Shown: positions 889 to 21,024, counted from the stretch's first letter. The stretch is 26,113 nt of DNA from a virus (IMGVR_UViG_3300032240_001579:1-26113); one strand, 5' to 3'. Numbers and translations: made by a program. Notes: a model not told the origin generated them from the sequence alone.

Positions 889-1170
889 TCACAACCACTT
901 ATTCAATTTCAAAATTTTGAAAATTGCTTCATCCAAAGTTTCAACTACTCTATGCGGAATCGGTTCTTCATAAGTAAATTCTATTGCGTGAATGATTTCA
1001 TGGATAAAAGTTTTGGCCGTGTCCGTGTTACTCATGCCAAGTTTTAAAATAATCGTTTTATCCTCTTTAATACATAGCCCCATGCAAGAATGGTCATCCT
1101 GGATGATTTCTTGCCACAACACTTTGTAATAAATGCCCCGTTTGATTCGGACTTTTGATGGAATTTTCAT
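889..1170 (-). CDS. Small HExxH zinc metallopeptidase-like protein
   Basis: The product has 93 residues. HEIIH at residues 57-61 is the zincin metal-binding and catalytic motif. It lies in the helix TFIHEIIHAIEF, and a further acidic helix (VVETLDEAI, residues 76-83) could supply the third ligand glutamate. The N-terminal half (residues 4-45) looks like the short beta-sheet that precedes the catalytic helix in the small SprT/IrrE-like phage proteins. No signal peptide is visible, so it should act in the cytoplasm. It is read opposite to its neighbours. The ATG at 1170 has TAAGG close upstream. The substrate is unknown; candidates are a host regulator or a DNA-bound protein, by analogy with the wider families only. 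Confidence 0.72.
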   Translation of the reverse strand: MKIPSKVRIKRGIYYKVLWQEIIQDDHSCMGLCIKEDKTIILKLGMSNTDTAKTFIHEIIHAIEFTYEEPIPHRVVETLDEAIFKILKLNKWL

Positions 1171-1222: not shown

Positions 1223-2245
1223 ATGGATGCTAAAGTTGCCCTTTATCAAAAGTTAAAGGCACTAGCGTCCGATTTGGGGCGGGTGCCGAAACGTGACGAA
1301 TTTGTTGCCCTATACGGTGAAACCCAATACCGGAAGGCATTCGGTTCTTTTACCGTTTTTTTACAGGGCGCCGGGCTAAAGGAAGAATCCAAGCCGGAAA
1401 AAAAGCCCAAGTTCAAATTTAAAAAGTCCCACCTGGAATCATTTAAGATTAACGAAATCGACCTGGATTCGTTGTTTGAACAATTCGGCAACCCCGAAAT
1501 TTTACGCATTACCGCACAACCCGATACCCACATGAAAAACCGTGACCATGGCGCCGTTAACGCCTATTTGGAATTCGTGGAGTGGTACCAACCCCATATT
1601 GCCATCATCGGCGGGGACTTAATGGACGCTGATGGGATTTCTCATTGGCCATCCGGTTCCCTGGAACCAAAGGCATTCATTCCCGAAGTGGTGGAAACCC
1701 GTCAATTCCTTGACCAACTTCAATCCAAGGTTGGCCCCACCGGGCAAATTCTTTACATTGAAGGTAACCACGAGGATTGGATACGCCAGGCCATGGTTGC
1801 CAAAATGCCGGAATTTTTTTACGGGTTGGCGGAACTTGGGTTAATGCCGGACTTAAAAGCATTGTTGGAACTGGATGCCAGGGGAATCCAGTTGTTCCCG
1901 GTAAATGAGATTGTCAAAATCGGGAAAGCCCACTTCACCCATGGCCTTTATACCGGCCCAAGCGCCCCTAAGAAACACTTGGACACGGTAAAGGGCAATA
2001 TCTATTATTTCCATACTCACGATGTTTTAACGCATCACCAACCGTCTATTTCGGGGTATATAGAATCCGCATCCCTGGGATGCCTATGCCGTTTGGATGC
2101 CCCATTTCTGAAGGGCAAGCCAAACAATTGGGTTCACGCCTTCGGGGTGTTCGAGTTTCAACGCAACGGCAATTATTCCTTTTACTGCCCAAAAATTTTT
2201 AACGGTTCCTTTTCCTTTAACGGGAAAAGGTTTGGGGGGAAATAG
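1223..2245 (+). CDS. Calcineurin-like metallophosphoesterase with N-terminal homing-endonuclease-associated repeat
   Basis: The product has 340 residues and two parts. Residues about 5-52 match the short helical repeat often attached to HNH/homing endonucleases (LGRVPKRDEF, then a helix, then AFGSFTVFLQGAGL), a presumed DNA-binding element. A lysine-rich linker (55-70) follows. Residues about 93-330 are a calcineurin-like phosphoesterase with metal-ligand motifs in order: DTH (101-103), GGDLMD (130-135), GNHED (181-185), FTHG (238-241) and FHTHD (263-267). These support a dinuclear metal centre that hydrolyses phosphoester bonds. AAAGGTGG lies 5' of the ATG. The pairing suggests a nucleic-acid or nucleotide substrate, but that is inference. 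The stop lies at the edge of the tRNA-like element. Confidence 0.85.
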   Translation: MDAKVALYQKLKALASDLGRVPKRDEFVALYGETQYRKAFGSFTVFLQGAGLKEESKPEKKPKFKFKKSHLESFKINEIDLDSLFEQFGNPEILRITAQPDTHMKNRDHGAVNAYLEFVEWYQPHIAIIGGDLMDADGISHWPSGSLEPKAFIPEVVETRQFLDQLQSKVGPTGQILYIEGNHEDWIRQAMVAKMPEFFYGLAELGLMPDLKALLELDARGIQLFPVNEIVKIGKAHFTHGLYTGPSAPKKHLDTVKGNIYYFHTHDVLTHHQPSISGYIESASLGCLCRLDAPFLKGKPNNWVHAFGVFEFQRNGNYSFYCPKIFNGSFSFNGKRFGGK

Positions 2246-2340: not shown

Positions 2341-2928
2341 ATGAAACGGATTGAAATTTACTTGGTGGGGTTTAGTTGTTTCCTTGGTTCCATGTTGGCT
2401 TGCAATAAGGCTTTAACGCCTACTAGGCCGACATACGAAACGCCCCTAGCCGTCCAAGTGGATTCCATACCCAAGGTTGAATTGGTTGATACAAACGCCC
2501 AAGGCGCTGAAATGGCCATGCTTAATGATGCCTTATCCGATTTAAACAATGTCCTGGCGTCCGATTGCTTTCAGGCGGATGTTTTGGCCGGGCAATTTAC
2601 CGAAACCAATAACCTAACCAATCAAGAAATCTATGATTTGTTCCGATTGAAACCCATTCAAATTGCCGTCACCATGTATTCGGGTTCGTGGGTAGAAAAC
2701 CACTTGATTGGCGTAATTGGTTACTATTCGCCGGCATATCCAAATACCGTATTTCAAAACCGGCACTTTGTTTCCGACCACTTTAAAAGCGCCTCGAACC
2801 TTTTGCATGAGATAGCGCACATTTTGGGGTTTAATCATGATTTGGTTTACTCTACTTCGGTTCCATACCAAATGAATGATATTTTCCAGGAATGTGCCGG
2901 GGAACTTGGAATAGCGGTTACGGAATGA
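2341..2928 (+). CDS. Lipoprotein zinc metalloprotease, metzincin-type motif
   Basis: The product has 195 residues. Residues 1-20 are a lipoprotein signal peptide ending in the lipobox SMLAC with Cys21, so the mature protein should be lipid-anchored outside the cytoplasm. The elongated motif HEIAHILGFNH (residues 156-166) is the metzincin HExxHxxGxxH zinc site: His156, His160 and His166 as ligands, Glu157 as catalytic base. A methionine at 178 (PYQM) is a possible Met-turn. AAGGGG precedes the ATG. It overlaps the convergent endolysin gene by 11 bp at the 3' ends. Not a usual structural or lysis gene; it may act on the host surface, exclude other phages or benefit an infected cell. The target cannot be told from the sequence. 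Confidence 0.75.
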   Translation: MKRIEIYLVGFSCFLGSMLACNKALTPTRPTYETPLAVQVDSIPKVELVDTNAQGAEMAMLNDALSDLNNVLASDCFQADVLAGQFTETNNLTNQEIYDLFRLKPIQIAVTMYSGSWVENHLIGVIGYYSPAYPNTVFQNRHFVSDHFKSASNLLHEIAHILGFNHDLVYSTSVPYQMNDIFQECAGELGIAVTE

Positions 2929-4192: not shown

Positions 4193-7018
4193 TTAAGGCC
4201 CCATGCTCTTCACTGATGCGTAGTTTAAAGTATATCCAGATCCGCCGGCAGTTGCGACCGATGCTCTAATGAATTTTGGAAGATGCCCTTGAAGCGGATT
4301 GGCATGACCAATCGAGTTAGTAGCTACCGTCACAGTTGATCCGTTAATATTATACCAGTTAGATCCATCCTCTGAACCTTGAATTACAAAACTCGGAGAT
4401 CCGCCCGTCCCACCCGCACCAAGAGACACCACCAAATATGGCTGATTTGTTCCCTCTGTAAAAAGCGCCGACGATGATGATCCAAGAGTATTTGGGTTCA
4501 TCGTTCGGTCAATGAGTCGCCTCATTAAACTACTGTTTCCAGCCCGACCGATTCTGATCGCTGACATGGTGAACGATGGAGTCGTTCCCGTAACGGTCCG
4601 GACGTACCTGAACCCGATCCCCGCGAGCTTCATCACTGGGGAATAGTAGGTGCCCGTGGCCGTGATTCTCTCAAAATGGTAAACATCGTAGAAATTAACC
4701 CCATCCATGGTTTCTTGAAGAACAATATCAAGCGTTGGAGTGGTGCCTGAAACGGCCGTGATCGCAACTTGAAACGCCACCGATTGGATGTTTGTCGTTG
4801 CAATGTTTGCGGATGTTGTCGTTGTTGTGATTGCGCCCGATGCAATGTCGGTTGTGGTTGCTGATGCCAAGTTGTCAGATGTGACGGAAGCAACAGCGGT
4901 GACCGAAGAAACTGTTGAAACAGTCGTCAGGGTGCCCGATGCGACAGAAATGGCGTTGGTGCTACCCACCGGAGCGTTATAGGTCCACGAGGTTGCCGTA
5001 GTGGCTCGGACTACCGTGGTAATTGTGCCTGAGGTGTAGGCCGTTGCAATCGTTCGCACCTGAACACACCCAGCGCATTGCACTAACCAAGCACCCGGTG
5101 ATGGTGTAGACGTAACCAAGTTCACGTTTTGAGCTGATCCGTATGGAATCGCCTGAAGCGCAATCCAATTTGTCCCGTCAAGCGTTCCTTGAAAGGATAA
5201 GGTTGCAGTAAACGTGCCTCGAATATCCATGGCGCAAGCAGTGTATCCGGCCACGTTGACTACCGTGAATCCGTTCAATGCGCTAATGCTTCCGAATGTC
5301 GTTGGTCCGTTTGGTCCAAACTGAACGACTTGATCGTAAGCGATGTTGACCGGGGTGGAAAAGGCAGTATTTGCGGAACCAAGTGCCGGGGTTTTGGTAT
5401 TAATTGCAGAAAGGGTTGCCTCGGTAGATGCTCCAGTGGGGAGAGAAACGGTTCCGCTAATGTTTGCAATGTTACCAATGGTGTTGGTGCCCGATGGAAT
5501 CGGGTTTTCAAGCATTACAACGCCGGTACTTTGATTTGCAACAAGCGTTACGTTTGCCGTTCCTGTTGCCACCGTGTTTCCACGAAGGCGCACATATTTC
5601 AAACCCGAACAATTTATTTGAAAAATGTTGTTTGTTGTAAAGTTGTATGCGGTTCCGCCGGAAGTAAGGGCAATTGATGGGGTTCCGTACCAATTAGATC
5701 CATCAAGCGAACCCTCAATTGTAATTGTTCCGGTCCATGTTCCAGATACTTGGGCGCCAACGGTTCCGGAACCATCGACGGCAAGAACTACGTTAGACGT
5801 TCCAGTGATATTTCCGGCAGTTTGATAATCGGCTTGGGTCACCGATGCCCTAACAAGAATAGGGGGCACAATTTCTGAAAACCTAGTAATTGATTGAATC
5901 GTTCCGCCAGTTAGTGCGGTGTTGATTCTAACTCGAATATATCGGGCGTTTAAAGGAACAACATAAATAATACTTTGATTTGATGCTGAAATGGCCCCGG
6001 TAATTGGTGCGCTTGCGGTGTTCAGAGAATTGTAAACCCCGATATTAAAAAATGTGGAGTTATCATTTGATCCTTCAAACACATAAGAACCACCGCTTGC
6101 GGAACAATTCAGTTGAATAATTGCAATTTTGTACCCATCACAAGCCGTTGAACCGCTTGAGCCGGACAAAATGTTTACGTTAACCGCCGAAACTCCGCCG
6201 GGTCCGGTAACAGAAAAGTCCGGTGCCACCACCCTTTGTGTCCCGCTTGAGATTCCGCCGTTTCCGTAATCAATTCCCGTTCCATTTGAAGTATATTGGT
6301 TTGATGCAACCCGAAGTGTGTAAGCATCACTAGCGCCCTGATTAAATGAAGCCGGCCCACCGGCCGAAGAAGTAAGCAAGAATGGTGGCGGGCTAGTATA
6401 TCCGACCGGATTTCCATTCCAGTAATCAAGAGAAGTAGAAATTGTTCCCGCCGATCCCTCAATAATTACAGGAATGGAAGTGGTTGTGGAAATGTTGTCG
6501 ATGTCAACTTTGAGATTGTTGGTCATCGGGTCCATGTTAGGAGTAACTAAGTTCCCGCCGTTGATGAATCCCACCGATAAGGCGTCATTGTATCCTGAGG
6601 TTGTAGAACTTGGTAAAGGCCACCCAAGTTGTCCCCCAAATGATGAGTTTAAAAGGTTAATGTCTAACCCCTCTTTACCCGTAATTGAATCAGTGGTGGA
6701 AAGGATTGGTTGCGTCCCGGTACCGTCATAAATTGCGGTTGGGGCGCTTGCCAGGTCATAAATAACTTGAAGTGGCCCACCGGGAAATCCGGTTGTGTCA
6801 TAAGTAAGATAAAGAATTGGGTCGGAATAACTACCGCCCAAATTAGAATCATGCCCGGAAGTGGTGTAAATGATTCGTTGTGCGGTTACATCAATAATTG
6901 CAAAAAGCCGGGTAAAATCAAAAACCGCCCCGACAACGCTATTAAAGTTTGAAAAATCAACCTGTTGAATTCCTGGGCTATAAATACTTGCATCGGCTGG
7001 AAGAACTGTTTTTGCCAT
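4193..7018 (-). CDS. Large repeat-bearing putative tail fibre / virion surface protein (941 aa)
   Basis: The 941 residues are rich in Ser, Thr, Gly and Asn, with almost no Lys and few charges, typical of phage fibres. After a unique N-terminal region (1-290) I see five modules with a shared signature: a strand, EGS-x-DGSNW, then 40-60 residues later a (K/R)Y(V/I)R(V/L)R strand. The first element lies at about 312-324, 431-444, 605-618, 763-777 and 876-889; the second at about 358-366, 473-481, 651-658, 803-810 and 914-922. This suggests beta-sandwich (carbohydrate-binding or discoidin-like) domains. A low-complexity T/S/A linker lies at about 690-745. AGGGT precedes the ATG. Receptor binding is inferred from composition and position. 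Confidence 0.7.
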   Translation of the reverse strand: MAKTVLPADASIYSPGIQQVDFSNFNSVVGAVFDFTRLFAIIDVTAQRIIYTTSGHDSNLGGSYSDPILYLTYDTTGFPGGPLQVIYDLASAPTAIYDGTGTQPILSTTDSITGKEGLDINLLNSSFGGQLGWPLPSSTTSGYNDALSVGFINGGNLVTPNMDPMTNNLKVDIDNISTTTSIPVIIEGSAGTISTSLDYWNGNPVGYTSPPPFLLTSSAGGPASFNQGASDAYTLRVASNQYTSNGTGIDYGNGGISSGTQRVVAPDFSVTGPGGVSAVNVNILSGSSGSTACDGYKIAIIQLNCSASGGSYVFEGSNDNSTFFNIGVYNSLNTASAPITGAISASNQSIIYVVPLNARYIRVRINTALTGGTIQSITRFSEIVPPILVRASVTQADYQTAGNITGTSNVVLAVDGSGTVGAQVSGTWTGTITIEGSLDGSNWYGTPSIALTSGGTAYNFTTNNIFQINCSGLKYVRLRGNTVATGTANVTLVANQSTGVVMLENPIPSGTNTIGNIANISGTVSLPTGASTEATLSAINTKTPALGSANTAFSTPVNIAYDQVVQFGPNGPTTFGSISALNGFTVVNVAGYTACAMDIRGTFTATLSFQGTLDGTNWIALQAIPYGSAQNVNLVTSTPSPGAWLVQCAGCVQVRTIATAYTSGTITTVVRATTATSWTYNAPVGSTNAISVASGTLTTVSTVSSVTAVASVTSDNLASATTTDIASGAITTTTTSANIATTNIQSVAFQVAITAVSGTTPTLDIVLQETMDGVNFYDVYHFERITATGTYYSPVMKLAGIGFRYVRTVTGTTPSFTMSAIRIGRAGNSSLMRRLIDRTMNPNTLGSSSSALFTEGTNQPYLVVSLGAGGTGGSPSFVIQGSEDGSNWYNINGSTVTVATNSIGHANPLQGHLPKFIRASVATAGGSGYTLNYASVKSMGP

Positions 7019-7027
7019 ATCTGTACC

Positions 7028-8857
7028 CTATCCAAAAATAATTGCGTTAACAATTGTAATGATTGTGTTGTCCGTTGCCGAAGTTACTCTTCCGGCGCTA
7101 TCAATTGTGGCCTTTAAAACCGGGTAAGTCCCCGCCGTAACGCCGGTTGCAGATAATGTCGCGGTGCTTGTACCGGAAGCAACCGTTACGTCACCCGTTA
7201 ACGACATATTTTCGGTAACTTTGCGCCATTGGGTTGGGTATGCAACCGGATTATATCCCGCCCCACCAATTGCAATTACCATTACATAGGATGCCCCTAA
7301 ATACCAAACCCCGTCATTAACTGTATAAGTAATCCCGTTGTTATAGTCCCCGGTCCAATTAACGGCATTGTACGCAACGCTATTTGATGCCGAAGTTACC
7401 CGGCCCTTGGAATCAACCGTAATGTTGGCGTTGGTATAAGAACCCGCAACTACACCCGAAGTTGGTAAAGATACGTTTACCGCACCCGTGGTGGGGCTTA
7501 CCGAAATAGAACCGTCCGAACTATTAACCGAAGTAACCCCGCCGGAACTGGAACCGTTTGATGCAAGGGTTATCCTTCCCTTGGAATCAACTGTAATGTT
7601 GGCATTGGTGTATGCCCCCGCCGTAACGCCGGTTGCGGATAATGCCGAAATATTGCTTCCAAGGGGAACTGAAACATCCCCAGTAATGGCCGAACGCTTG
7701 GCAACAACCGCCCCCGTGGTGGGGCTAATTGTTAATGTCCCATCGGCATTGGATACGGAAGAAACTCCGGCCGGGATGCTTGAAATAGCATTATCCACAT
7801 AAGTTTTAACGGCGTGTTGTGTGGGGTATAATGTATCCGAAACACCCAAGGTTCCACTTGTGCTTTTATTGGCAACATTCTCCGGAGTAAACCCAAGGGA
7901 ATCCTGTTTAGCATTTAATGCGGTTTGGGTAGCGGTTGATATGGGTTTGTTTAAATCCGAAGTATTATCAACATTCCCCAAACCAACGGCGTTTTTATCC
8001 AGGGTTTGCCAAGTCTTATCCCCACGCCAGTATTGGGCGGTTGTGCCTGGCGTAATTGTTGATTCTTTACCATTTAGTGCTGTTTGGGTGGCCGTGGAAA
8101 TAGGCTTATTTATATCGGAAGTGTTATCGACATTTCCAAGTCCCACCGAACTTTTATCAAGCGTTTGCCAAGTTTTATCACCACGCCAGTATTGGGCGGT
8201 TGTGCCTGGGGTAATGGTGGGTTCTTTTGTCGCTAATCCGGGGACGGTTGGAAGGTCGGCGGTTCCGGCCAGGTCACCGGATAACTTCAATTTACCTTTT
8301 AAAACTGTAGTTGCGTCCGGTGTAGTGCCCGAAATAACGGCATTATCCACATAGGTTTTAACTGCATTTTGGGACGGATAAAGGGTGTTGGAAGTCCCCA
8401 GGGAAGTGTTGGTGGATTTGTTGGCAATGTCTTCCGGGGTATATCCCAATAAGTCTTGTTTGGCGTTTAAAGCGGTTTGGGTGGCCGTAGAAATGGGTTT
8501 ATTCAGGTCGGAAGTGTTGTCCACATTCCCCAACCCAATATCCGATTTGGTTAAAACAACATCACCGGTTTGGGTATTCACCGAACGCACCGGCGCAACG
8601 GTGGCCGGGTCAACCCATTCAATATCGTATGAAGTGTTCGACGCCTTTACCAAAACCTGGCCAGTTGTTCCGCCTGAGACAACGCCTTCACCCGGAATGC
8701 CCTGGGTTCCCACATCCTGAATAATCAGGGTTTTGGCTTCAACCCGGACTTCAATAATTTCATTGTTCTGAACTTCGGTTACAATCGTGGTTGAATCGGT
8801 TTCAATAACCGTAATTGCCGTTGGTTGTTGATCGGCAATCGTAACCTGGTCATTCAT
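7028..8857 (-). CDS. Tail fibre protein with GLGNVDNTSD repeats (609 aa)
   Basis: A clear phage fibre. The N-terminal ~75 residues include a short collagen-like GTQGIPGEG. Three copies of GLGNVDNTSD followed by NKPISTATQTALN come next, interspersed with two copies of AQYWRGDKTWQTLDK and two of NAVKTYVDNA or HAVKTYVDNA. The second half has three copies of a VTAGxYTNANITVDSKGR-type unit, and residues about 505-550 resemble a CBM5/12-like aromatic module ending in PTQWRKV. Such repeats form trimeric beta-helical shafts in related fibres. The start overlaps the previous stop as ATGA, with GAGGTGA upstream. It is probably attached near the baseplate; adhesion is inferred. Confidence 0.85.
   Translation of the reverse strand: MNDQVTIADQQPTAITVIETDSTTIVTEVQNNEIIEVRVEAKTLIIQDVGTQGIPGEGVVSGGTTGQVLVKASNTSYDIEWVDPATVAPVRSVNTQTGDVVLTKSDIGLGNVDNTSDLNKPISTATQTALNAKQDLLGYTPEDIANKSTNTSLGTSNTLYPSQNAVKTYVDNAVISGTTPDATTVLKGKLKLSGDLAGTADLPTVPGLATKEPTITPGTTAQYWRGDKTWQTLDKSSVGLGNVDNTSDINKPISTATQTALNGKESTITPGTTAQYWRGDKTWQTLDKNAVGLGNVDNTSDLNKPISTATQTALNAKQDSLGFTPENVANKSTSGTLGVSDTLYPTQHAVKTYVDNAISSIPAGVSSVSNADGTLTISPTTGAVVAKRSAITGDVSVPLGSNISALSATGVTAGAYTNANITVDSKGRITLASNGSSSGGVTSVNSSDGSISVSPTTGAVNVSLPTSGVVAGSYTNANITVDSKGRVTSASNSVAYNAVNWTGDYNNGITYTVNDGVWYLGASYVMVIAIGGAGYNPVAYPTQWRKVTENMSLTGDVTVASGTSTATLSATGVTAGTYPVLKATIDSAGRVTSATDNTIITIVNAIIFG
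8022..8209. repeat. 29-bp direct repeat within the fibre gene
   Basis: Identical 29-bp copies (beginning CCACGCCAGTATTGGGCGG) lie at 8022-8050 and 8181-8209, 159 bp apart, which is exactly 53 codons. They encode the duplicated AQYWRGDKTW element, so loss or gain of one unit by recombination would keep the frame. Confidence 0.8.
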
Positions 8858-10321: not shown

Positions 10322-10897
10322 TTACGGTTTATACCACCCGATTTGATACCCGACGAATGCCGGTTTAATGCCCAATTGTTCCATGAACACTTGCACCATG
10401 AAATGTTTTCCCTGGGTGTCCGAATGCCTATCATCCACCACTACCAGGCACCCCCTGGGCAATTTAGCCCATACGGTTGCCAGTTCAGCCATGTGGTGAA
10501 ACATGGAATCCAAGGCTATGGATGGGTGCCAATCAAACGAATCCAAATAAAGTAACGTCATGTCGTATAAATCCACATCCGAAAGCCCGGAAAGCATATT
10601 TAACGAATTGGCGCATATTACTTCCGTATGCTTTACCTGTTTCCGAGCAATTTCCACGAATTCGGGGTTAATATCTACGGACTTCACTCGTACCGGTAGG
10701 CGTTCCGCTAACCAATCCCAAATAAGGGTTGATTGGCCATCACCACCCCAATTCCCCTCAATCCTGGCGGTGCCGGTTTCGACAATCAAGCCAGGGCGGT
10801 TTTCGACATGGGAAACCATTAAAGCAAAGGTTTCCAGGCGGTGGTCTAGTTTTTTAAAGGTTTCATTCTCTAAAAATTCTTTAATTACCGGGTTCAT
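10322..10897 (-). CDS. Class I SAM-dependent methyltransferase-like protein
   Basis: The product has 191 residues. The Rossmann-type motifs are visible: IVETGTARIEGNWGGDGQST at about 38-57 as the glycine-rich SAM loop (with an unusual insertion before GGDGQST), SVDINPE at 73-79 with the acidic residue that binds the ribose, LLYLDSFD at 115-122 and VVVDD at 152-156. The arrangement resembles class I enzymes often annotated as Methyltransf_24, whose members act on sugars or small molecules. Its start overlaps the stop of the GT9 gene by 4 nt, so the two are co-translated and probably work on the same substrate, perhaps a glycan. Acceptor unknown. Confidence 0.75.
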   Translation of the reverse strand: MNPVIKEFLENETFKKLDHRLETFALMVSHVENRPGLIVETGTARIEGNWGGDGQSTLIWDWLAERLPVRVKSVDINPEFVEIARKQVKHTEVICANSLNMLSGLSDVDLYDMTLLYLDSFDWHPSIALDSMFHHMAELATVWAKLPRGCLVVVDDRHSDTQGKHFMVQVFMEQLGIKPAFVGYQIGWYKP

Positions 10898-11877
10898 AGT
10901 TTGCTAACCCCCCACTTGGCGAATTCAACCGGGTCGGGAAGCCAGGAACGCAAGTTGTCATCACCCACAAATTCCGCCGTAACTTCATTATCAACATTCG
11001 GGCAATAATCCAAAATGTCCCAAATACCGCCCTTGCCGAAATTTTGCATACGCCACAACCATTGGCCACGGCGCCAATGCCCGATATGGTCCGTATGCTT
11101 ACAGGTGGCCACGAAACCAATCCAGGCGTCCGAATCAACGGCCATGTGCAATGGGGACGAATCGTTGGTTAAAAGCACCTTGGATTGCTTTAAAATGGAA
11201 ACGGTTTCCATGATGGAAAGTTTGTTTCTCATATCAACACAACCGTCCGTCATTACATCAACGGTGCCCCGGTTATCGTCCGTGTTCGCACCTACTATAA
11301 CTGGTAAACCGCCTTCGGAAATGATTGTTGAAATCACGGAATCCCAAAACTCTTTAGGAAATGTTTTGGATTGCCAATGCTTCCCTGGATGCAACACAAC
11401 GGCCCGGCTTAAATCAAAATCTGGCTTGTACCCCACATCCGCCAACATAACTTCCTTGTCGGCCACGGGAAGGGTAAGGCGCAAGGCGCATAATGATGGG
11501 AAATCCACGCAATTCGTAATCATGTGGCTGAAAAATTGCCATACCAGGTTCGTGTCGTTTGGTTGGGTAATCGTTTCAAACACCAAATAATTATCGTGGT
11601 TTGGCCGGACTTTTTTGGTGTGAAAAACATCCTTAAAATTCAGGTGCTGAAACAATTCCGGGTGTTCGGTTTCTAAACTAATGTCGCATCCCTTGAATGT
11701 TTTTAGGGCATAACGCAAGGTAGGTTCGGCGCAAATTTGGTCACCCAAACCGCCCCAGGTGCGAAATAAAAGGTTTTTTTCAACCCCGTTTTGAATCGCA
11801 ATTGTGGTTCGAAACGATGGGATAAAAACGGCCGGAATTTGGACTTTATCGAATTTGGTGTATTTGGTTTGTTCCAT
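10894..11877 (-). CDS. Glycosyltransferase family 9 (heptosyltransferase-like)
   Basis: The product has 327 residues. The N-terminal domain contains GGLGDQICAEPTLRYA (42-57), the GT9 glycine loop. The C-terminal domain has VVLHPGKHWQSKTFP (160-174), a VIVGANTDD strand (193-201) and TNDSSPLHMAVDSD (237-250), which corresponds to the nucleotide-sugar binding motif of heptosyltransferases. The family builds the inner core of lipopolysaccharide from ADP-heptose; the phage copy may use another sugar. TAAGGTG precedes the ATG. It lies between the RCC1 fibre genes and the lysis-like genes, so it could modify a virion protein or the host surface. Both are inference. Confidence 0.85.
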   Translation of the reverse strand: MEQTKYTKFDKVQIPAVFIPSFRTTIAIQNGVEKNLLFRTWGGLGDQICAEPTLRYALKTFKGCDISLETEHPELFQHLNFKDVFHTKKVRPNHDNYLVFETITQPNDTNLVWQFFSHMITNCVDFPSLCALRLTLPVADKEVMLADVGYKPDFDLSRAVVLHPGKHWQSKTFPKEFWDSVISTIISEGGLPVIVGANTDDNRGTVDVMTDGCVDMRNKLSIMETVSILKQSKVLLTNDSSPLHMAVDSDAWIGFVATCKHTDHIGHWRRGQWLWRMQNFGKGGIWDILDYCPNVDNEVTAEFVGDDNLRSWLPDPVEFAKWGVSKL

Positions 11878-11913: not shown

Positions 11914-13419
11914 CTATTGATTGTAAGAAATTGCCACGCTATCCACGGCCCCGGACGCCACCGGGGTTGTCCCAAATGTTGAATTTGATGCCCCAATTGT
12001 TACCGAATACGCCGTGCCTGGGGTAACCGAAATTTGAAACGAACTTGGGAAGTTTGGTGCTGATGTTGATTGTTGGTTAGCCACATAAATCCCCGGAATG
12101 ATTGTTGGCGAACTTCGTGGAATTGTATCACCCAACCCAAGTTGTCCGTTATTGTTTGCCCCCCAGGCATATATCGTACCGTTTTCCGCTACCGCATACG
12201 CACTTTGATAGTTTGCAACAACACGAACAAATTTTGTGGAACTAACTGAAGAAATTAAAGCCACCGATGATTGCGAACCTGATGATGTTCCATTTCCTAA
12301 TTGACCGGAAGAATTATAACCCCATGAATATAAATTTCCGGTTGTGCTAATTGCCAAACCAAAATCACTTCCTAAAACCATTGATGAAAATTTAGTAATT
12401 CCGTTGCTAATAATTGTTGGGGTTGACGTCAACACGGGTAACCCTGTGTAAACGTAAAACCAACCGGCTAAATCGCCCGATGTTGTGATACCGCCAGTTT
12501 TTGTTATATAACTAAATGTTAATCCACCAGGCAATAAAACGGGAGAACTTCTGTTTGCTGTATCACCAACGCCAAGCAAAAATTGGGCATTATTCTGGCC
12601 CCACCCATAAACTTGTCCGGACGGAGTTAAACCCCAGACGGCCAACCTATTATATTTTGTAATTTGTTTAAATGTTAATCCGCCCAATACCGCTACCGGG
12701 GAACTTCTAGCGGTATTTACAACGCCAATTCCAAGGGTTCCATATCCATTATCCAAACCCATGGTATAAGCGGTTCCGGTATTTGATAACATTACCGGCA
12801 CATAATCGCCGGTTCCGTTCAATATAACATCAGTAAATGTTAATCCGCCAACCACTAATGTTGGAGAACTTCGGGGCACAACATCATTGGTTCCAAGCAT
12901 TCCAAAATAATTAGCACCGGCGCCATAAAGTTTCCCGTCACTATTTAAAAAAAATGTAGCCGAAACACTGCTCCCATTGCTTGGTGTAACCTTGATTGGT
13001 GTCAATCCACCAACAACCAGGGTTGGGGAACTTCTTGAAGTGGTGTCGTTAGTGCCAAGTTGTCCACTAATGTTCCATCCCAATCCATATAAAGCGCCCG
13101 ACGAATCTAAAACAAATGTGTTTCCAATTTCTTCGCTATTTGTTTGATCATTAAAAATTTTTGATATTTTTAATGATTGAATTAGCGTTGGAACACTTCT
13201 TGAAGCAACATCACCAACCCCAAGCTCACCGTCATTATTTCTACCAAACGAGAATGTTGCGCCCGATTGGGTTCTAATAATTCCAGTCCCCACCGGCCCC
13301 GTAATTCCACTTGATAGGGTTGTTAAGGTATATTTCGGCGTAACCGTAACGCTAGTAACTCCGGCCGGTGGCGTAAATGTTCCGCTTGTTGTGAATGTTT
13401 GAATTGATGCGTTTGCCAT
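11914..13419 (-). CDS. RCC1-repeat beta-propeller fibre-like protein, copy 3
   Basis: The product has 501 residues. The N-terminal ~30 residues carry the fibre-type motif TFTPPAGVTSVTVTPKY. About eight RCC1-type units follow, each with an aromatic-x-x-G-x-N core, then GxLGxGD, RSSPT and a hydrophobic GGLTF strand. Two are degenerate (a unit lacking the W-G core around GDLAGWFYVYT, and AYTMGLD). The C-terminal ~50 residues (VTPGTAYSVTIGAS...VAISYNQ) match those of copies 1 and 2. RCC1 propellers are seven-bladed interaction domains; the flanking fibre-type ends make a virion adhesin likely. The ATG lies 3 nt after the previous stop with only a weak GGA upstream, suggesting translational coupling. 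Confidence 0.85.
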   Translation of the reverse strand: MANASIQTFTTSGTFTPPAGVTSVTVTPKYTLTTLSSGITGPVGTGIIRTQSGATFSFGRNNDGELGVGDVASRSVPTLIQSLKISKIFNDQTNSEEIGNTFVLDSSGALYGLGWNISGQLGTNDTTSRSSPTLVVGGLTPIKVTPSNGSSVSATFFLNSDGKLYGAGANYFGMLGTNDVVPRSSPTLVVGGLTFTDVILNGTGDYVPVMLSNTGTAYTMGLDNGYGTLGIGVVNTARSSPVAVLGGLTFKQITKYNRLAVWGLTPSGQVYGWGQNNAQFLLGVGDTANRSSPVLLPGGLTFSYITKTGGITTSGDLAGWFYVYTGLPVLTSTPTIISNGITKFSSMVLGSDFGLAISTTGNLYSWGYNSSGQLGNGTSSGSQSSVALISSVSSTKFVRVVANYQSAYAVAENGTIYAWGANNNGQLGLGDTIPRSSPTIIPGIYVANQQSTSAPNFPSSFQISVTPGTAYSVTIGASNSTFGTTPVASGAVDSVAISYNQ

Positions 13420-13422
13420 AAT

Positions 13423-14889
13423 TTATTGTCCGTAGGTAATGGTCATTGAATCAAGTAAACCATAGGAAACTTGCGTTGCCCCGAAAAATGAATAGCTAAC
13501 CCCAAAAGTAATAGAATAAGCGGTGCCGGGTACCACCGTAAGGTTAGTTGATGATGGCATTGGTAATGCGGATTTGTTTACCAATTGCGGTAAAACGGGC
13601 GCCGGCATTAGGGTGGGGGAACTTCTATTTACGACATCGTTTAACCCAAGTTGCCCGTTTCCGTTTTGCCCCCAGGCGTACAACTGGCCGGAAGTGTTAA
13701 CACCATAATTTACTGCACTGTAACCATTGTTGATTTTTGCAAATGTAAGTCCACCAAGCACGGCCACTGGGGAACTTTTTAATAAAAAATTGGTGCCGTC
13801 ACCCGTTTGTTGGCCCCATACATAAGCCTGGCCGGACGTTGTAAGCCCAAAGGAAACCCCAATATCTTTCCAGGTTAAACCACCCACAACCAAAACGGGC
13901 GAACTTCTGGCGGAAACAACTGTTCCATCACCAAGCAACCCACTATTAAATCCCCACCCGTATGCTTGGCCGGCGGTAGTTAAACCGAAATTATAACTAT
14001 TATTGTTTACAAGTTTTGAAAAGGTAAGTCCGCCCAATACAAGGGTTGGGGAACTTTTTGGAATAACCGTATTATCCCCAATGTTTCCGTTGGTATTTAA
14101 CCCCCAGGCATACGCCTGGCCGGTGGTGGTTAATCCTAAAAAATTATACCCATAGTTTGGATCACTTGCTACGGATGCAAAAGATAACCCACCTAAAACT
14201 AAAGTTGGAGAACTACGCCAAGTGGTATCCCCTACGCCCAATTGCCCATAGGTATTATCACCCCAGGCATATAGTTGGCCGGCCGTTGTAAGCCCAAAAA
14301 ATGAAGCCCGACACCCAAAAATGTCTTTAAACTTTAACCCACCCGCTACCAATGTCGGGGTGCTTTTTGGAATTAGCGTTCCATCACCCATCAACCCACT
14401 GGTATTAGATCCCCAGGAATACAAATCCCCGGTAATGGTTAATGCAAAAGCGTTGTTGATGGCGGTTAATGTCTTAACCACTGGCGCCGGAACTGAAATA
14501 AAAACCGGGGATGTTTTTGCAACGGTTGTTCCGTCACCTAACTGGCCAAATCCGTTTTGCCCCCATGTGTATAAACTTCCTTGTTTAATTCCGGCGGTAA
14601 CTGGAAATGTTGATGCTCCACCGGAAACCAAATATTCAAAAGAAAGGTTACCGGCCACCGCCACCGGGGAACTTTTTGTTACAATCGTTCCATCCCCAAT
14701 TTGGCCGGTTAAATTTGAACCCCATCCATAAGCATAGCCATCCTGGGCAACTAAAAACGAACTGCCGTTGTTTGAAATGTCGAATGTTGGCCCGTTCTTA
14801 TAGCTTGGCGTAACGGTGATGTTTGTCACCCCGGCCGGTGCCGTCCACGTTGTTGAACCCGTTATTGTGATTTGTGAAGTTTGTCCCAT
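13423..14889 (-). CDS. RCC1-repeat beta-propeller fibre-like protein, copy 2
   Basis: The product has 488 residues. The N-terminal motif TTWTAPAGVTNITVTPSY is shared with the neighbours. Eight RCC1-type units are visible from their cores: AYGWGSN, LYTWGQN, LYSWGSN, LYAWGDN, AYAWGLN, AYGWGFN, AYVWGQQ and LYAWGQN, each followed by GxxGDGT, KSSP or RSSP and GGLTF. The C-terminus (VVPGTAYSITFGVSYSFFG...TITYGQ) is also shared. No signal peptide is present. The ATG overlaps the end of copy 1 closely (stop TAA, one base, ATG) with no strong Shine-Dalgarno. An alternative to an adhesin would be a protein that mimics a host regulator, but the fibre-type ends and position argue against this. Confidence 0.87.
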   Translation of the reverse strand: MGQTSQITITGSTTWTAPAGVTNITVTPSYKNGPTFDISNNGSSFLVAQDGYAYGWGSNLTGQIGDGTIVTKSSPVAVAGNLSFEYLVSGGASTFPVTAGIKQGSLYTWGQNGFGQLGDGTTVAKTSPVFISVPAPVVKTLTAINNAFALTITGDLYSWGSNTSGLMGDGTLIPKSTPTLVAGGLKFKDIFGCRASFFGLTTAGQLYAWGDNTYGQLGVGDTTWRSSPTLVLGGLSFASVASDPNYGYNFLGLTTTGQAYAWGLNTNGNIGDNTVIPKSSPTLVLGGLTFSKLVNNNSYNFGLTTAGQAYGWGFNSGLLGDGTVVSARSSPVLVVGGLTWKDIGVSFGLTTSGQAYVWGQQTGDGTNFLLKSSPVAVLGGLTFAKINNGYSAVNYGVNTSGQLYAWGQNGNGQLGLNDVVNRSSPTLMPAPVLPQLVNKSALPMPSSTNLTVVPGTAYSITFGVSYSFFGATQVSYGLLDSMTITYGQ

Positions 14890-14890
14890 G

Positions 14891-16405
14891 TTATTGCTCG
14901 TAATTAAGGGTTAATGAATCAACAAGCCCCAAGGATACGGGCGTTTTATCAAAAAACGAATATCCAATACCAATATTGATTGAATAGGTTGCGCCGGGGG
15001 TTATTGGAACGGTTATTACTGTTGGCATTGGGAATGGTTGTTTGCCGGTTACTTGCGGATAAGTTGCGCTTGAAATCAATACTGGGGAACTTTTCGGAAT
15101 AATAGTCCCATCACCTAGTTGGCCATAACCATTATAGCCCCAACCATAAACTTGATTGTTTGAAAGCGCAAAATTTGAACTAATGGCGGTTGAATCCGGC
15201 CCACTCAAAATTTTTGTGAATGTAAGCCCACCAAGCACGGCAACCGGAGAACTTTTCGGAATAATAGTCCCATCACCAAGTTGGCCATCACTATTGATAC
15301 CCCAGGCATAACAACTTCCCGATGTTGTTAATCCCATGGCGCCAAACGATGCCCCCAAAATGTCTTTCCACGTGAATCCCCCAAGAACTAAATTTGGTGA
15401 ACTTTTTGGAATTAGTGTCCCATCACCCAATTGGCCATAAGTATTGTCACCCCAGGCATATAGTTGGCCGGATAGGGTGAGGCCAAAAACATTTTTTCCT
15501 GTATTGATAATTTTAGAAAATTTTAATCCACCCACTACCGCCACCGGCGAACTTTTGGAAATAACAGAATTATCACCCAATTGCCCGTTAGTGTTTAAAC
15601 CCCATGAATATGCGGTTCCATCCGCTAATAATCCAACAACACTAAGGGTGTTTGGTGTTAAAAGGTTTTTAGCCGGGTATAACGAATCGAAAACCAAACC
15701 ACCCAAAACCGCCACCGGGGAGCTTTTTGTTACGAATGTGCCATCACCAAGGTTTCCCGTTATGTTGGTGCCCCAGGCGTAAGCCAAACCGGATGTTGTT
15801 AATCCAATTGCAAATTCTGATCCAGAATAAAGTTTTTTAAATTTTAATCCGCCAGTTAATAATGTCGGAACACTTCGGTTCAAAACATCATTTACCCCAA
15901 GTTCACCTTTTAAATTTCTGCCCCATGCATATACATCATTGTTCCCAAATAATGCATAAATGGAAGCGGAACCAACCGCAACTTTCATTGCTTGGCCAAT
16001 TGATGAAATTAAAACCGGTGAACTTTTGGCAACCACCGTCCCATCACCTAATTGACCAAAACTGTTTTGCCCCCAAGAGTAAATTTTTCCGTTTGAAATC
16101 CCAAAACAACAATCACCTAAAGAACCAATTGCATTGTTTGCAACATCATCAAACTTTATTCCACCAACAACCGAAACAAATGAACTTTTTGATGCAACGG
16201 AATTGTCACCCAATTGGCCAACACCATTATTTCCACTTCTATAAATTGTCCCATCCGGCGCCAATAAAAACGATGCATATATATCACCACCAAATCCCAG
16301 ATAGTTTGGAACTCTGTAATTTGGTTTAACCGTTACCGATGTTACGCCGGCCGGTGCCGTCCAGGTTGTCGATGCTGTAATGGTTTGGGTTGCAATGTTT
16401 GCCAT
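14891..16405 (-). CDS. RCC1-repeat beta-propeller fibre-like protein, copy 1
   Basis: The product has 504 residues and is the first of three tandem paralogues in transcription order. The motif TTWTAPAGVTSVTVKPNY lies at about 13-30. Eight RCC1-type cores follow: IYRSGNN, IYSWGQN, VYAWGRN, AYAWGTN, AYSWGLN, LYAWGDN, CYAWGIN and VYGWGYN. The middle and later units are nearly identical in GQLGDGT-IIPKSSPV and LGGLTF. The C-terminus (ITPGATYSINIGIGYSFFD...LNYEQ) is the conserved end. AAGGTGGG lies well placed before the ATG, the only strong ribosome binding site of the three. Each unit is about 54 residues, seen also as DNA repeats at 15087-15277. Host-contact function is inferred. Confidence 0.87.
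   Translation of the reverse strand: MANIATQTITASTTWTAPAGVTSVTVKPNYRVPNYLGFGGDIYASFLLAPDGTIYRSGNNGVGQLGDNSVASKSSFVSVVGGIKFDDVANNAIGSLGDCCFGISNGKIYSWGQNSFGQLGDGTVVAKSSPVLISSIGQAMKVAVGSASIYALFGNNDVYAWGRNLKGELGVNDVLNRSVPTLLTGGLKFKKLYSGSEFAIGLTTSGLAYAWGTNITGNLGDGTFVTKSSPVAVLGGLVFDSLYPAKNLLTPNTLSVVGLLADGTAYSWGLNTNGQLGDNSVISKSSPVAVVGGLKFSKIINTGKNVFGLTLSGQLYAWGDNTYGQLGDGTLIPKSSPNLVLGGFTWKDILGASFGAMGLTTSGSCYAWGINSDGQLGDGTIIPKSSPVAVLGGLTFTKILSGPDSTAISSNFALSNNQVYGWGYNGYGQLGDGTIIPKSSPVLISSATYPQVTGKQPFPMPTVITVPITPGATYSINIGIGYSFFDKTPVSLGLVDSLTLNYEQ
15087..15277. repeat. 29-bp direct repeat between RCC1 units of copy 1
   Basis: Identical 29-bp copies (beginning GAACTTTTCGGAATAATAG) lie at 15087-15115 and 15249-15277, 162 bp apart, exactly 54 codons or one propeller blade. 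The identity at DNA level suggests recent duplication or gene conversion of blades. Confidence 0.8.
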
Positions 16406-16414
16406 ATACCCACC

Positions 16415-17101
16415 TTACAGTAAATAATACTGGGTTCCATCGTAAAATACTCCCCGGTTCCAGTAAGGGGCATAAACCACATAGTTGGCGGATAACCCTT
16501 CAATGTTTTTACCGTTGGGATTGATTGTTAATGCGTTGGTTGATAACGCCCCGCCCACATCCTTAAAATAAAACACGCTGTATGCGCTTGGGGATGCCGG
16601 CATGGTTACGGTAATTGCCCCGGATGTTGTATTTACTTCCATCACCTGGTTGGCATTGGAAGTGGTTAAAGTGGTGTTGGCCGTAATGGAAGCCGACCCG
16701 CTAATACCGCTTCCGGCCCGTTTCCAGTTGGTTGCACTTGAAAGGGCGTTTCCGGTGTTGTTATCGGTTAACGAAACATAGGTGATTCCCGTTCCATCCT
16801 GAACGATTGAACCAATGTAATAAGTGGTTGTGGCATCGTATTCAGGCGTTCCCAATTGCATCAAATACGACAATTGGTAGGTTACCAGGTAAAACAGGGC
16901 GTTCATGTCCTCAATTGCCGGACTGTTGCCCCCGATAACCGCATTAAACCACCCGGAAAGGTATTGGCTTAACCCTTGAATGGTTGTTGGGTTAGTGGTG
17001 TAGTTTGGCGTTCCGTTGGCCAAACTTCCGAATTGGGAAATTTGCGTTCCGCTTGCCGTTGAACCGAAAACCTTTTGAATGTACCTGTTTAACCTTGGCA
17101 T
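16415..17101 (-). CDS. Tail fibre / adhesin N-terminal protein with CBM5/12-like module
   Basis: The product has 228 residues. The N-terminal half (residues 1-85: IQKVFGS, QFGSLANGTPNYTT, IQGLSQYLSGWFNAVIGG, PAIEDMNALFYLVTYQLSYL) is a pattern I recognise in tail fibre proteins of proteobacterial phages and is likely the baseplate-attachment part. Residues 88-128 (YDATTTYYIGSIV...YVSLTDNNTG...NWKRA) form a small aromatic module like the chitin-binding CBM5/12 fold. The rest is beta-rich, ending in YWNRGVFYDGTQYYLL. AAGGGG precedes the ATG. It lies directly before the RCC1 genes and after the last baseplate gene, the usual place for the first fibre gene. Confidence 0.83.
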   Translation of the reverse strand: MPRLNRYIQKVFGSTASGTQISQFGSLANGTPNYTTNPTTIQGLSQYLSGWFNAVIGGNSPAIEDMNALFYLVTYQLSYLMQLGTPEYDATTTYYIGSIVQDGTGITYVSLTDNNTGNALSSATNWKRAGSGISGSASITANTTLTTSNANQVMEVNTTSGAITVTMPASPSAYSVFYFKDVGGALSTNALTINPNGKNIEGLSANYVVYAPYWNRGVFYDGTQYYLL

Positions 17102-17110
17102 TTTGTCCCC

Positions 17111-17872
17111 TTATGTTGCTAATGCGTTAGCATACGAAACCCATGGCCAGGAAGGCCATGTTGAAAATCCGTAATTAGAAAATGGTTCAATGTTGTAACC
17201 CTGATACAACTTCCAGTTAGCGCCCACAACCGGGGTATTGTTTAGGTTGTTATCAACCAAGGATTGGTAATAAACCCCTGAATACTTAACCGCCTGGTTG
17301 GTTGAATAGGTGGTGGTGGCGTTCCAGGTGGGGTAATTGGCCACTTCCCCATAACTTGGCATTCCGAAAAACTGGACATTGTTGCGGTAAATAACCGTCA
17401 TCCGAACGCCCATTGGCCGGGGCAATGCGCCTTCCTTAATAAAGAATTCAACCAATTGTTGTGCCCCGATTGCATCGGCAAATAGGTAGGTAATTCGCAT
17501 GGTGGTATGGTCATAAATGAACAACACCCCAGGGAAGGAAATGGCTAGGAAATCTTGAATGTCGGCCAGGCTTGAACCGTAAACCGTTTGGGCAACCCTT
17601 AGTTTAATGTATTCCCGAAATTGGGCATCCGTTAGGGTCATTGCCCCGGAAAAGTTATATCCGTACCTATCGGCCCCAACATACTTGCCCAACACATCCA
17701 ATTGGACGCCCACGGCCGTATCAATGGTAAAGGCGTCTTCAAGGGTAGCCGGCAACTGATTTGCCACCAACATATTGACGAACGCCTGAACGGTTGCCAC
17801 CGCATTCGGTTGTTCCGAATACTGCATGATTAACAGGCTAGAATAATAACTTTTTATTTCCGCATCCGTCAT
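17111..17872 (-). CDS. DUF2612-like baseplate protein with C-terminal CBM5/12-like module
   Basis: The product has 253 residues. Residues 1-165 match the pattern of DUF2612-type baseplate proteins that follow baseplate J, in a position like that of P2 gpI: an N-terminal helix, VGVQLDVLGKYVGADRYGY, AQFREYIKLRV and a IYRNNVQFFG strand. Residues 183-223 (WNATTTYSTNQAV...YYQSLVDNN...NWKLY) are a CBM5/12-like module also seen in the next gene. I chose the ATG at 17872, which shares one base with the stop of baseplate J (TGATG), rather than an in-frame TTG at 17875. It would link the wedge to the fibres. Confidence 0.8.
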   Translation of the reverse strand: MTDAEIKSYYSSLLIMQYSEQPNAVATVQAFVNMLVANQLPATLEDAFTIDTAVGVQLDVLGKYVGADRYGYNFSGAMTLTDAQFREYIKLRVAQTVYGSSLADIQDFLAISFPGVLFIYDHTTMRITYLFADAIGAQQLVEFFIKEGALPRPMGVRMTVIYRNNVQFFGMPSYGEVANYPTWNATTTYSTNQAVKYSGVYYQSLVDNNLNNTPVVGANWKLYQGYNIEPFSNYGFSTWPSWPWVSYANALAT

Positions 17873-19050
17873 CAAATCACCGTAATTGCAATGTTACCGG
17901 AAAGAATCGAAAATTGTTTATTTTTTGCCGAATTTGTCAGGGTGTTGGTATATGTGCCACCCACCGTTAAACAAAATCCGGCCCCCGTAACTAGGGTATT
18001 CGGGTCAATTTGTTGAACGCAAGTGGCCAATTTGTTGACGTTCATGGTGGCATAAACGCCAGGCGCCAGTAATCCAGGCAATTGTGCCAGGATTGCGGTT
18101 GTGTTGGGCGGGTTAATCCCGTCCAAGGATGAAGCGTTAAACTTGATATAAAGGGTTTCGGAAACCACCCCGTCCCATCTAACGGTAAAAATAGTCCCGT
18201 CCGCTTGGGTAATGTTGTAGGTGGTCGAACCCTTCATGCCACAACCGGCATTTCGTTTCTTGTAAATGGCATTGGCAATTTCTGCCGATGTTCCACCCGA
18301 TGCGATAACCCAAATGGAATGGCCCGGAATACCGTCCCCGTTGGTGGTGTCGGTGGTGTTTTCGTAAATCGAAACCGCTGTAATCCCGTTAATGTTGTTC
18401 AGGGAAGCGTACAGGGCGTTGTAATAGCCTTGGGACGCCAAGGAAACGGACTTTTGCCGGCGTAACCTTAGGGCGGAATCGGTTTCTTCGTCAATCCCCA
18501 GGCTTGTGTAAGTGTATGGGTTATTGATTAGGGTAACGCCCAAAACAACCGTAACGGGCACCGTAATGGTGTTTGGGGTGGTCAGGATTGCCCCGGTTTT
18601 GGATGCCTGAAAGGAATATTGGTAAGTTCCGGCCACGGCCGGGGTTTGAGTTGAAAGTAATTGGAATTGGGTTCCGGTGTTGTCCTGGACGGTAAAAGGA
18701 TTGTCCGGGTATAAGTCCAACCCATTAAGCGTACAGGCGCCGGATACGGTAATGGATACCGGGGTAATGGTGTGGGTACCCGCTTGGCGTTGAATCCCGT
18801 TAATGGCCACCCTGGCATCCAAGGAAGTCCCAACCGCCTTATCCGGGTCAAAACTGTTATAGATTTGGGTAAGGAAATCCAGGTTATCAATGGCGCACTG
18901 GATGAAAATGTTCATCAACTGGCCGTCCGGGGAATCCGGCGTTAATGTAATGTCCGTCCCGTAAATGCCTTCCAGGGCGGTGGAAAGTTGAGCATATAAA
19001 TCGTTGTAGGAATTCGTTGTTAAACCCGTGCTAGTAATTGCGTTTGCCAT
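17872..19050 (-). CDS. Baseplate J-like wedge protein
   Basis: The product has 392 residues, the usual size for this family. N-terminal features (GLTTNSYNDLYAQL, ITLTPDSPDGQLMNIF, NSFDPDKAVGTSLD) and the central GIDEETDSALRLRRQKSVSL with NALYASLNNINGITAVSIYEN are those of baseplate J / P2 gpJ / Mu gp47-type proteins. These form the baseplate wedge and trigger sheath contraction. It overlaps the upstream gp25-like gene (TAATG) and the downstream gene (TGATG), consistent with one translated series. Confidence 0.93.
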   Translation of the reverse strand: MANAITSTGLTTNSYNDLYAQLSTALEGIYGTDITLTPDSPDGQLMNIFIQCAIDNLDFLTQIYNSFDPDKAVGTSLDARVAINGIQRQAGTHTITPVSITVSGACTLNGLDLYPDNPFTVQDNTGTQFQLLSTQTPAVAGTYQYSFQASKTGAILTTPNTITVPVTVVLGVTLINNPYTYTSLGIDEETDSALRLRRQKSVSLASQGYYNALYASLNNINGITAVSIYENTTDTTNGDGIPGHSIWVIASGGTSAEIANAIYKKRNAGCGMKGSTTYNITQADGTIFTVRWDGVVSETLYIKFNASSLDGINPPNTTAILAQLPGLLAPGVYATMNVNKLATCVQQIDPNTLVTGAGFCLTVGGTYTNTLTNSAKNKQFSILSGNIAITVI

Positions 19051-20139: not shown

Positions 20140-21024
20140 TTACACCCCTTCAATCTTTCCGGTGATGGCACTACCAACCAGGGTAACCGTTGTTGTGGCT
20201 TCCCCGGAAACGGTGGGGGAAATAATGCCCTGATGTTTGATGCCATTAACCTTGTAATCGGCGTTTTGGATTGCGTTGTAATAATTACCAAAATATTTAC
20301 TTTTTAATTGAATCTTTTGGTTCAGAATAATTCCGGGTTCAAACACCATGGTAACTTGCACATATTGATCTTGTAAAATGGGCGTCCCAATCAACCCATT
20401 TTCTGAGGTAATTTCTGGTAACGATGCCGGTAATCCCCGGTTCATTGGGACAATGTTGGCAATGCCATTGTCGATTGAAAGGTTGCCTTTAGTTAATTTA
20501 AACAGTTCTGAAACGGTGTTGCCGTCGATTGTAATTTGTTTAGTGGTTTTTTTCCCATCATCCACAATGGTTCCAACCTGGATTCCGTAGCTTCCCAGGC
20601 TTTTCAGCATATCCTTGTATATTTGCATATAAGAAATGTTGGCACCGTAGGTTTGGGAATAGTAAGCGCCGGCCAGGGCAAACCCAATGTCATTGCTTTC
20701 GATTGTGGTAATCCAGTTAACCCCCTGGCGGACCGATTGCGCCACGGTGATATTACCCCGGAAAATAACCTTTAAATCTTCATCGTACCCGGCTTTTAGG
20801 GTTAGCGTTCTGGCTTGTTGGGCAATGCCGTAATCGTGATAATCCCGGCGCAATTGTGAACGGTGTTTTTCGGATAGATTATACAGTTTTAAAATTGAGG
20901 TATTGGAGGAAGTCCACGCCTTGCGGTTAATATCAAATTCCAATGTAATTGGTGGGGTTATCGTTAATTTCGTCCCCGCATTTGTATCAATTTCTAAGGT
21001 GTATTGGCGTTGCTTTCTAACCAT
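20140..21024 (-). CDS. Baseplate hub protein
   Basis: The product has 294 residues. It starts MVRKQRQYTLEIDT with a first beta-barrel-like domain (LTITPPITLEFDINRKAW, ILKLYNLSEKHRSQLRRD, LTLKAGYDEDLKVIFRGNI). A middle helical part follows (YMQIYKDMLKSLGSYGIQVG) and a C-terminal beta domain ends in ATTTVTLVG. These are the parts of phage hub proteins that join the tube to the spike. It lies between the plug and the spike gene, as expected, and overlaps the plug gene by 8 nt. Confidence 0.82.
   Translation of the reverse strand: MVRKQRQYTLEIDTNAGTKLTITPPITLEFDINRKAWTSSNTSILKLYNLSEKHRSQLRRDYHDYGIAQQARTLTLKAGYDEDLKVIFRGNITVAQSVRQGVNWITTIESNDIGFALAGAYYSQTYGANISYMQIYKDMLKSLGSYGIQVGTIVDDGKKTTKQITIDGNTVSELFKLTKGNLSIDNGIANIVPMNRGLPASLPEITSENGLIGTPILQDQYVQVTMVFEPGIILNQKIQLKSKYFGNYYNAIQNADYKVNGIKHQGIISPTVSGEATTTVTLVGSAITGKIEGV

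Follow-up and report, generated by a model that had tools for sequence, protein, structure and literature searches.

Phage receptor-binding proteins set host range. In T2/S16-type phages the tip of the fibre is a separate small adhesin, gp38, placed at the end of gp37, in which a variable, glycine-rich head is joined to a conserved part for attachment (PMC12892980, citing Dunne et al. 2018), and in the branched complex of the Ackermannviridae (CBA120 TSP1-4, with the XD domains of TSP4) gp10-type domains form the base and each phage has several adhesins (PMC8825819). RCC1-type heads are absent from the adhesin classes in the open-access literature searched, which held no description of RCC1 propellers as phage adhesins; the "RCC1" of papers on RcGTA, rumen phages and prasinoviruses denoted numbered genes or strains instead of the domain. 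Proteins with RCC1 repeats are common in phages, where PHROG places them in three families under DNA metabolism, and some have been found in virions by mass spectrometry. Jumbo and Vequintavirinae phages (W70, GAP32 gp1, phAPEC6, 121Q, PBECO4) often carry several such genes, as in Escherichia phage W70 with three in tandem (W70_237-239, 40-43 kDa; PMC11370258) and phAPEC6 with eleven copies (PMC7247149), and the products are present in the virions of W70 and GAP32 (PMC11370258, PMC5259590). Here we describe three tandem RCC1 genes on the minus strand of IMGVR_UViG_3300032240_001579 (the window), which spans an entire IMG/VR virus record (26,113 bases) and is not a cellular genome. A first-pass annotation of this DNA had described RCC1 propellers as mainly eukaryotic and bacterial-effector interaction domains, which is incomplete, and had proposed that the three form a family of adhesins. 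We conclude that they are very probably the tail-tip adhesins, and so the predicted receptor-binding proteins, of a contractile-tailed phage, docked on a short fibre encoded just upstream.

In the mechanism that we propose, the short fibre (16415-17101, minus strand, 228 residues) would be anchored near the baseplate and end in a gp9/gp10-type β domain. Each RCC1 protein would dock on that end through a small β domain to which the ~31 N-terminal and the ~45 C-terminal residues both contribute, and this domain would hold out an eight-bladed propeller to bind the host surface with its faces and loops. As a head, the propeller would be exchangeable: relatives use glycine-rich adhesins or other fibres in its place, or fuse it, with its caps, to a stem. 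Tandem growth in copy number would have given the window phage three different heads, carried together on one fibre or shared among several, and a late glycosyltransferase, with a methyltransferase, would modify either the propellers or the host glycan that they recognise.

The RCC1 assignment is beyond doubt. The three adjacent genes, given in the first-pass annotation as encoding 488-504 residues each, are open reading frames (ORFs) of 504 residues (gene 1, 14891-16405), 488 residues (gene 2, 13423-14889) and 501 residues (gene 3, 11914-13419). Pfam PF00415 matches them with E values of 1.8e-57, 4.1e-46 and 2e-44, in 7, 6 and 6 separate stretches respectively, and all 19 RCC1 matches above the curated cut-off in the window fall within these genes. 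The RCC1-like domain PF25390 scores 176-207 bits against a cut-off of 150, and the repeat motif occurs 8, 7 and 5 times in genes 1, 2 and 3, compared with a mean of 0.1-0.2 in shuffled sequences. Pairwise identities among the proteins are 49, 40 and 40%; gene 3 is the most diverged and its repeats the most degenerate, the motif being lost from the repeat near residues 310-335.

The gene 1 protein was modelled with AlphaFold2 from an alignment of 18 sequences (predicted local distance difference test, pLDDT, 85.5; predicted template-modelling score 0.79). Residues 41-446 form eight four-stranded units that correspond to eight repeats, giving an eight-bladed propeller in line with the expectation of about eight repeats and a propeller fold. 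The best solved matches in Foldseek are eukaryotic RCC1-type proteins, UVR8 among them, at 1e-34. RCC1 and UVR8 propellers have seven blades, so that gene 1 has one extra, seven being typical of the Pfam family but not required for it. The likeness to eukaryotic RCC1, UVR8 and HERC2 is thus one of repeat sequence and fold; those proteins differ in their seven blades, their cellular functions and their lack of attachment caps. Among viral models (BFVD) the closest are tail fibres from two Pseudomonas phages, Littlefix and PollyC (TMq 0.70-0.71), with coverage above that of the solved matches.

Outside the propeller, the model places three N-terminal strands (N-cap, residues 1-31) and five C-terminal strands (C-cap, residues 460-504), parted from the blades by low-confidence hinges at 32-40 and 447-459. 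The N-terminal motif noticed at first sight is common to all three proteins (APAGVTSVTV, APAGVTNITV and PPAGVTSVTV), as is the C-terminal end (TPGATYS, VPGTAYS and TPGTAYS, with a final YEQ, YGQ or YNQ), and these shared ends are the cap strands that flank the propeller. We infer from the model that the two caps fold together as one small β domain, split by insertion of the propeller. Profiles of the N- and C-caps co-occur in the correct order in 84 ORFs (a redundant count, from every ORF in the loci gathered), 83 of which also have RCC1 repeats. Across six aligned proteins conservation is highest in the N-cap, and between the window copies this cap is 55-65% identical, compared with 22-68% for the blades. 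A tip adhesin is expected to join a conserved attachment part to a variable head, and this is what is seen across loci, where the caps are constant and the heads vary. In a separate protein, from locus L146, the C-cap profile matches at 4e-4 and the N-cap profile at 2.2, both correctly placed, which is suggestive of kinship with a glycine-rich adhesin domain.

The position of the genes points the same way. The trio sits in a contractile-tail operon on the minus strand, directly after the genes for a baseplate J-like protein (17872-19050; PF04865, 3.5e-11), a DUF2612 baseplate-type protein (17111-17875; PF11041, 1.1e-21) and the short fibre; encoding directly after a fibre gene in a tail operon is likewise the arrangement expected of a tip adhesin. 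The flanks are as first described, with the fibre-like gene upstream of the trio and a glycosyltransferase of family GT9 (10894-11877, minus strand) downstream. In its model the fibre has a helical N-terminal part of low confidence, a β region and a C-terminal knob of ~90 residues (about 135-228; pLDDT ~95). Foldseek matches the knob to CBA120 TSP4 (9e-7), T4 gp9 (5e-4) and T4 gp10 (6e-4). The Pfam domain T4_gp9_10_N is found in the homologue from locus L315 (4e-7), although a Pfam search of the window protein itself gave no hit; fibres that occupy this place in related phages are 43-50% identical to the window fibre. On the model, the knob is of the XD1/gp9 type of trimeric tail domain, and we take it as the proposed docking base. 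The arrangement recalls CBA120, with the difference that the adhesins there are trimeric tailspikes, whereas here the XD1/gp9-like knob is terminal and the heads are RCC1 propellers.

This combination of genes recurs. Loci gathered from two starting points, RCC1-only queries and glycosyltransferase queries, share the order knob fibre, capped RCC1 gene or genes, GT9 glycosyltransferase and at times a methyltransferase, in 39 contigs (33 after removal of near-duplicates), and the caps are kept in nearly all members. RCC1 genes beside a fibre of the 16415-17101 type, which the first-pass annotation suggested looking for in other phages, were found in about 30 loci. Among the 33 loci, L325 has no adjacent glycosyltransferase, a relative of the enzyme lying elsewhere on the same contig (L400), and in one glycosyltransferase search the RCC1 gene adjoins the enzyme in 20 of 22 loci, both exceptions being among the most distant.

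Fusions provide the strongest evidence, at the sequence level, that RCC1 proteins are parts of fibres. In L293 the knob is absent and the fibre N-terminus is joined straight to a capped RCC1 protein (PHROG tail fibre, 3.7e-12, plus RCC1), and L314 encodes two separate stem-RCC1 fusions in tandem. The gene in the tail-fibre position of PollyC, a cultured T7-like phage, combines a T7 tail N-domain (6.7e-5, just below the Pfam cut-off) with RCC1 repeats. PollyC and Littlefix thus resemble the window phage in that the C-terminal part of a fibre contains an RCC1 propeller, but theirs is fused to a long T7-type stem, with neither caps nor a separate adaptor; the proteins bear no annotation beyond tail fibre assembly or tail fibre. 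The idea of propeller-based adhesins is therefore well supported, by the fold, the position, the fusions to fibre stems and the T7-type fibre of PollyC.

What occupies this position in related phages that lack RCC1 genes? The baseplate J gene served to find syntenic phages, and none of the 54 loci found through it has either RCC1 or this glycosyltransferase. In the nearest two, L089 and L094, the flanking genes are kept, with a longer fibre and a small downstream gene in place of the trio; in L091, L092 and L099 a glycine-rich adhesin comes after the fibre, and in L092 and L099 it matches Pfam Gly_rich_2 (PF21722). Because relatives carry glycine-rich adhesins or other fibres here, we read the locus, from these gene contents, as an exchange site for adhesin heads. 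The replacement of RCC1 by glycine-rich adhesins, the gp38 type of head, is itself a likeness to the gp38 system. There are also marked differences, since here the head is an eight-bladed RCC1 propeller, the attachment part is split between the N- and C-termini and bears no detectable sequence relation to solved structures, there are up to three paralogues, and a glycosyltransferase accompanies them. The polyglycine-II head that defines the T2/S16 gp38 family is not found in the window proteins, glycine-rich PF21722 occurring in the relatives only. By analogy, the window proteins may work like a gp38-type tip without being members of the gp38 family.

Several points weigh against this assignment. 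The phages with the cassette are known from genes alone, and neither the capped proteins nor the glycosyltransferase has a close match among 50,697 GenBank phages. The cap domain searched alone against PDB and Pfam gave no significant match, only noise such as antibody scaffolds, and we therefore claim no known fold for it. For XD1/gp9 domains, docking via the threefold axis is not established (PMC8825819), and the RCC1 proteins that have been detected in virions were assigned by their authors to DNA condensation, though with no functional evidence (PMC7247149, PMC11370258). The cassette itself appears to be new in its split caps, its gp9-type adaptor, its glycosyltransferase and its recurrence in uncultured phages. 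A far broader generalisation, that the phage RCC1 "condensation" proteins as a whole are surface adhesins, with split-cap homo- or heterotrimeric propellers on a gp9-type adaptor, decorated by glycosyltransferases and widespread, we consider unlikely.

Why is a propeller gene so regularly followed by a sugar-transferring enzyme? The window glycosyltransferase matches PF01075 at 6.8e-8 (32.6 bits against a cut-off of 22) and heptosyltransferase II, 1psw, by profile at 3e-7; its scores with the NCBIfam heptosyltransferase models are far below cut-off, and the sugar is therefore not assignable. Overlapping it by 4 nucleotides is a methyltransferase-like gene (10322-10897, minus strand; a weak Pfam Methyltransf_25 match, 0.008), an optional member of the cassette of which homologues follow the glycosyltransferase in L294, L302 and L309. 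The enzyme adjoins capped RCC1 genes in about 30 loci. In three RCC1 searches a GT9 or glycosyltransferase-like gene lay next to phage RCC1 in 31 of 80, 46 of 69 and 35 of 45 loci, compared with 0 of 54 baseplate-J controls and 0 of 80 cellular RCC1 loci (Fisher p of 7e-9 or lower; the overlapping viral sets are not independent of one another). The two genes lie a median of 4-18 nucleotides apart, a figure from our first, slightly broader count. That first count, of any glycosyltransferase near RCC1, was too generous, many of its matches being an unconfirmed glycosyltransferase-like region, often with an N-terminal sulfotransferase. This second type of enzyme matches the GT9 set weakly by profile (probability 34%) and no glycosyltransferase in Pfam or PDB, and is for that reason named only glycosyltransferase-like. 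In L038, L163 and many large-phage loci, RCC1 is followed by a protein of ~590 residues with an N-terminal sulfotransferase domain and a glycosyltransferase-like region of putative activity.

The linkage may of course have a looser meaning. There is a substantial chance, if somewhat short of even, that the glycosyltransferase alters the host surface, through receptor masking or superinfection exclusion, and is tied to the adhesin merely because both concern the same glycan. GT9 is the family of the lipopolysaccharide heptosyltransferases, and related glycosyltransferases lie beside terminase-like genes with no RCC1 gene, so that the family also occurs apart from adhesins. The immediate adjacency, however, is seen again in unrelated phages and with enzymes of two different types, and given the position in a late structural operon a virion substrate is no less likely. 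As targets of the enzyme we therefore regard the propeller and a host surface glycan as about equally plausible; the link between propeller and sugar enzyme gives a starting point for work on virion glycosylation or receptor masking. The terminase-side relatives lie between terminase-like genes at 3866-4921 in L405 (on the same contig as L373) and in L389, L394, L397 and L398, and several of them adjoin a DNA-methylase-like gene. One phage, IMGVR 3300048819_000088, has both a terminase-side copy and an RCC1-linked copy.

How the three heads of the window phage are used is a related question. Unfused cassettes have one RCC1 gene in 27 loci and three in 4 (the window, L302, L315 and L320), but two in none, and this one-or-three copy number poses a concrete structural problem. 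In the tree, the L315 triplet forms one clade and the L320 triplet another, so that expansion occurred more than once, and the first-pass notion of an expandable set is borne out by at least two independent triplications within loci. Copies 1 and 2 of the window pair as sisters. Resolution is low overall (10 of 34 branches starred) and gene 3 has no settled place, for which reason we claim no single origin for the window triplet. It is quite conceivable, though we stop a little below an even chance, that the three genes encode alternative adhesins competing for one docking site, giving mixed virions with differing receptor ranges. The tandem, independent expansions within loci and the sharing of caps by more diverged propellers in the window copies are consistent with this, but the recurrence of three, and not two, is left unexplained.

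A less probable arrangement is a single hetero-trimeric tip, with one of each propeller on a threefold fibre, the single-gene relatives forming homotrimers. The absence of pairs from unfused loci is suggestive in this respect, triplication has recurred, and the fold of the knob is one found in trimeric phage proteins. Gene 1 has a good Shine-Dalgarno sequence (AAGGTGG), while genes 2 and 3 start 1 and 3 nucleotides past the preceding stop with weak ribosome sites, which suggests that their translation is coupled. There are, nevertheless, only four multi-copy loci, and the pattern would have a chance of 0.06 if half of all multi-copy loci had three. The fused L314 has two copies, uncapped arrays in jumbo phages reach seven or more, and gp38-type fibres place a separate tip protein on a gp37 trimer (PMC12892980). 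Competing alternative heads fit the copy-number data equally well as a three-component tip. One uncapped array, in L048 (6591-14352), comprises seven tandem RCC1 genes, six of ~370 residues and one shorter, on a 110-kb, jumbo-sized phage contig.

A role for the RCC1 proteins in condensing the phage genome, whether as internal virion components or as organisers of DNA, has been suggested for phAPEC6 and W70 but is very improbable here, for although the name, the PHROG category "DNA, RNA and nucleotide metabolism", the presence of such proteins in W70 and GAP32 virions and the proposals of the W70 and phAPEC6 authors favour that role, the window genes lie in the fibre block of a tail operon, the fusions of L293, L314 and PollyC to fibre stems or a T7-type N-domain place the propeller outside, the locus is syntenic with glycine-rich adhesins, and the published assignment derives from a eukaryotic name and not from experiment. 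The W70 proteins, called DNA condensation proteins, are also shorter than the capped ones. Databases label phage RCC1 as DNA metabolism and virion proteomes are interpreted in terms of genome condensers; if the adhesin assignment is true, the cassette of fibre, propeller and glycosyltransferase and the stem fusions would re-file the phage RCC1 group as host-recognition proteins.

The remainder of the tail operon, delimited by ORF calls and Pfam, includes a sheath-like protein (at 24462) and a tube protein (at 23990), both assigned from position and matches to DUF3383-type phage proteins, a Dit-like protein (at 21358) and a hub (at 20140), all on the minus strand, and continues beyond the methyltransferase-like gene with further small and fibre genes. 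By its sheath (46% identity) and baseplate J (43%) proteins, the best cultured relative is Bdellovibrio phage phi1422, a distant one.

Finally, other parts of the window deserve brief mention. There is a phage-encoded tRNA-Leu (TAA) at 723-809 on the plus strand. At 2341-2928 (plus strand) a small protein with a lipoprotein-like signal and a HEIAHILGFNHD motif, a metzincin-type zinc site, is possibly a secreted phage metalloprotease; it has no Pfam match. A 93-residue protein at 889-1170 (minus strand) has an HEIIH motif and a weak match to the putative metallopeptidase family DUF6782 (4.5e-4), and at 1223-2245 (plus strand) a homing-endonuclease-associated repeat (PF18780) is fused to a calcineurin-like phosphoesterase domain. 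A second fibre block at 4193-8857 (minus strand), with relatives in L089, L094, L292 and L311, encodes a 609-residue protein whose repeats are common to many phage fibre families and a 941-residue protein with a match to the carbohydrate-binding F5/8 type C domain.

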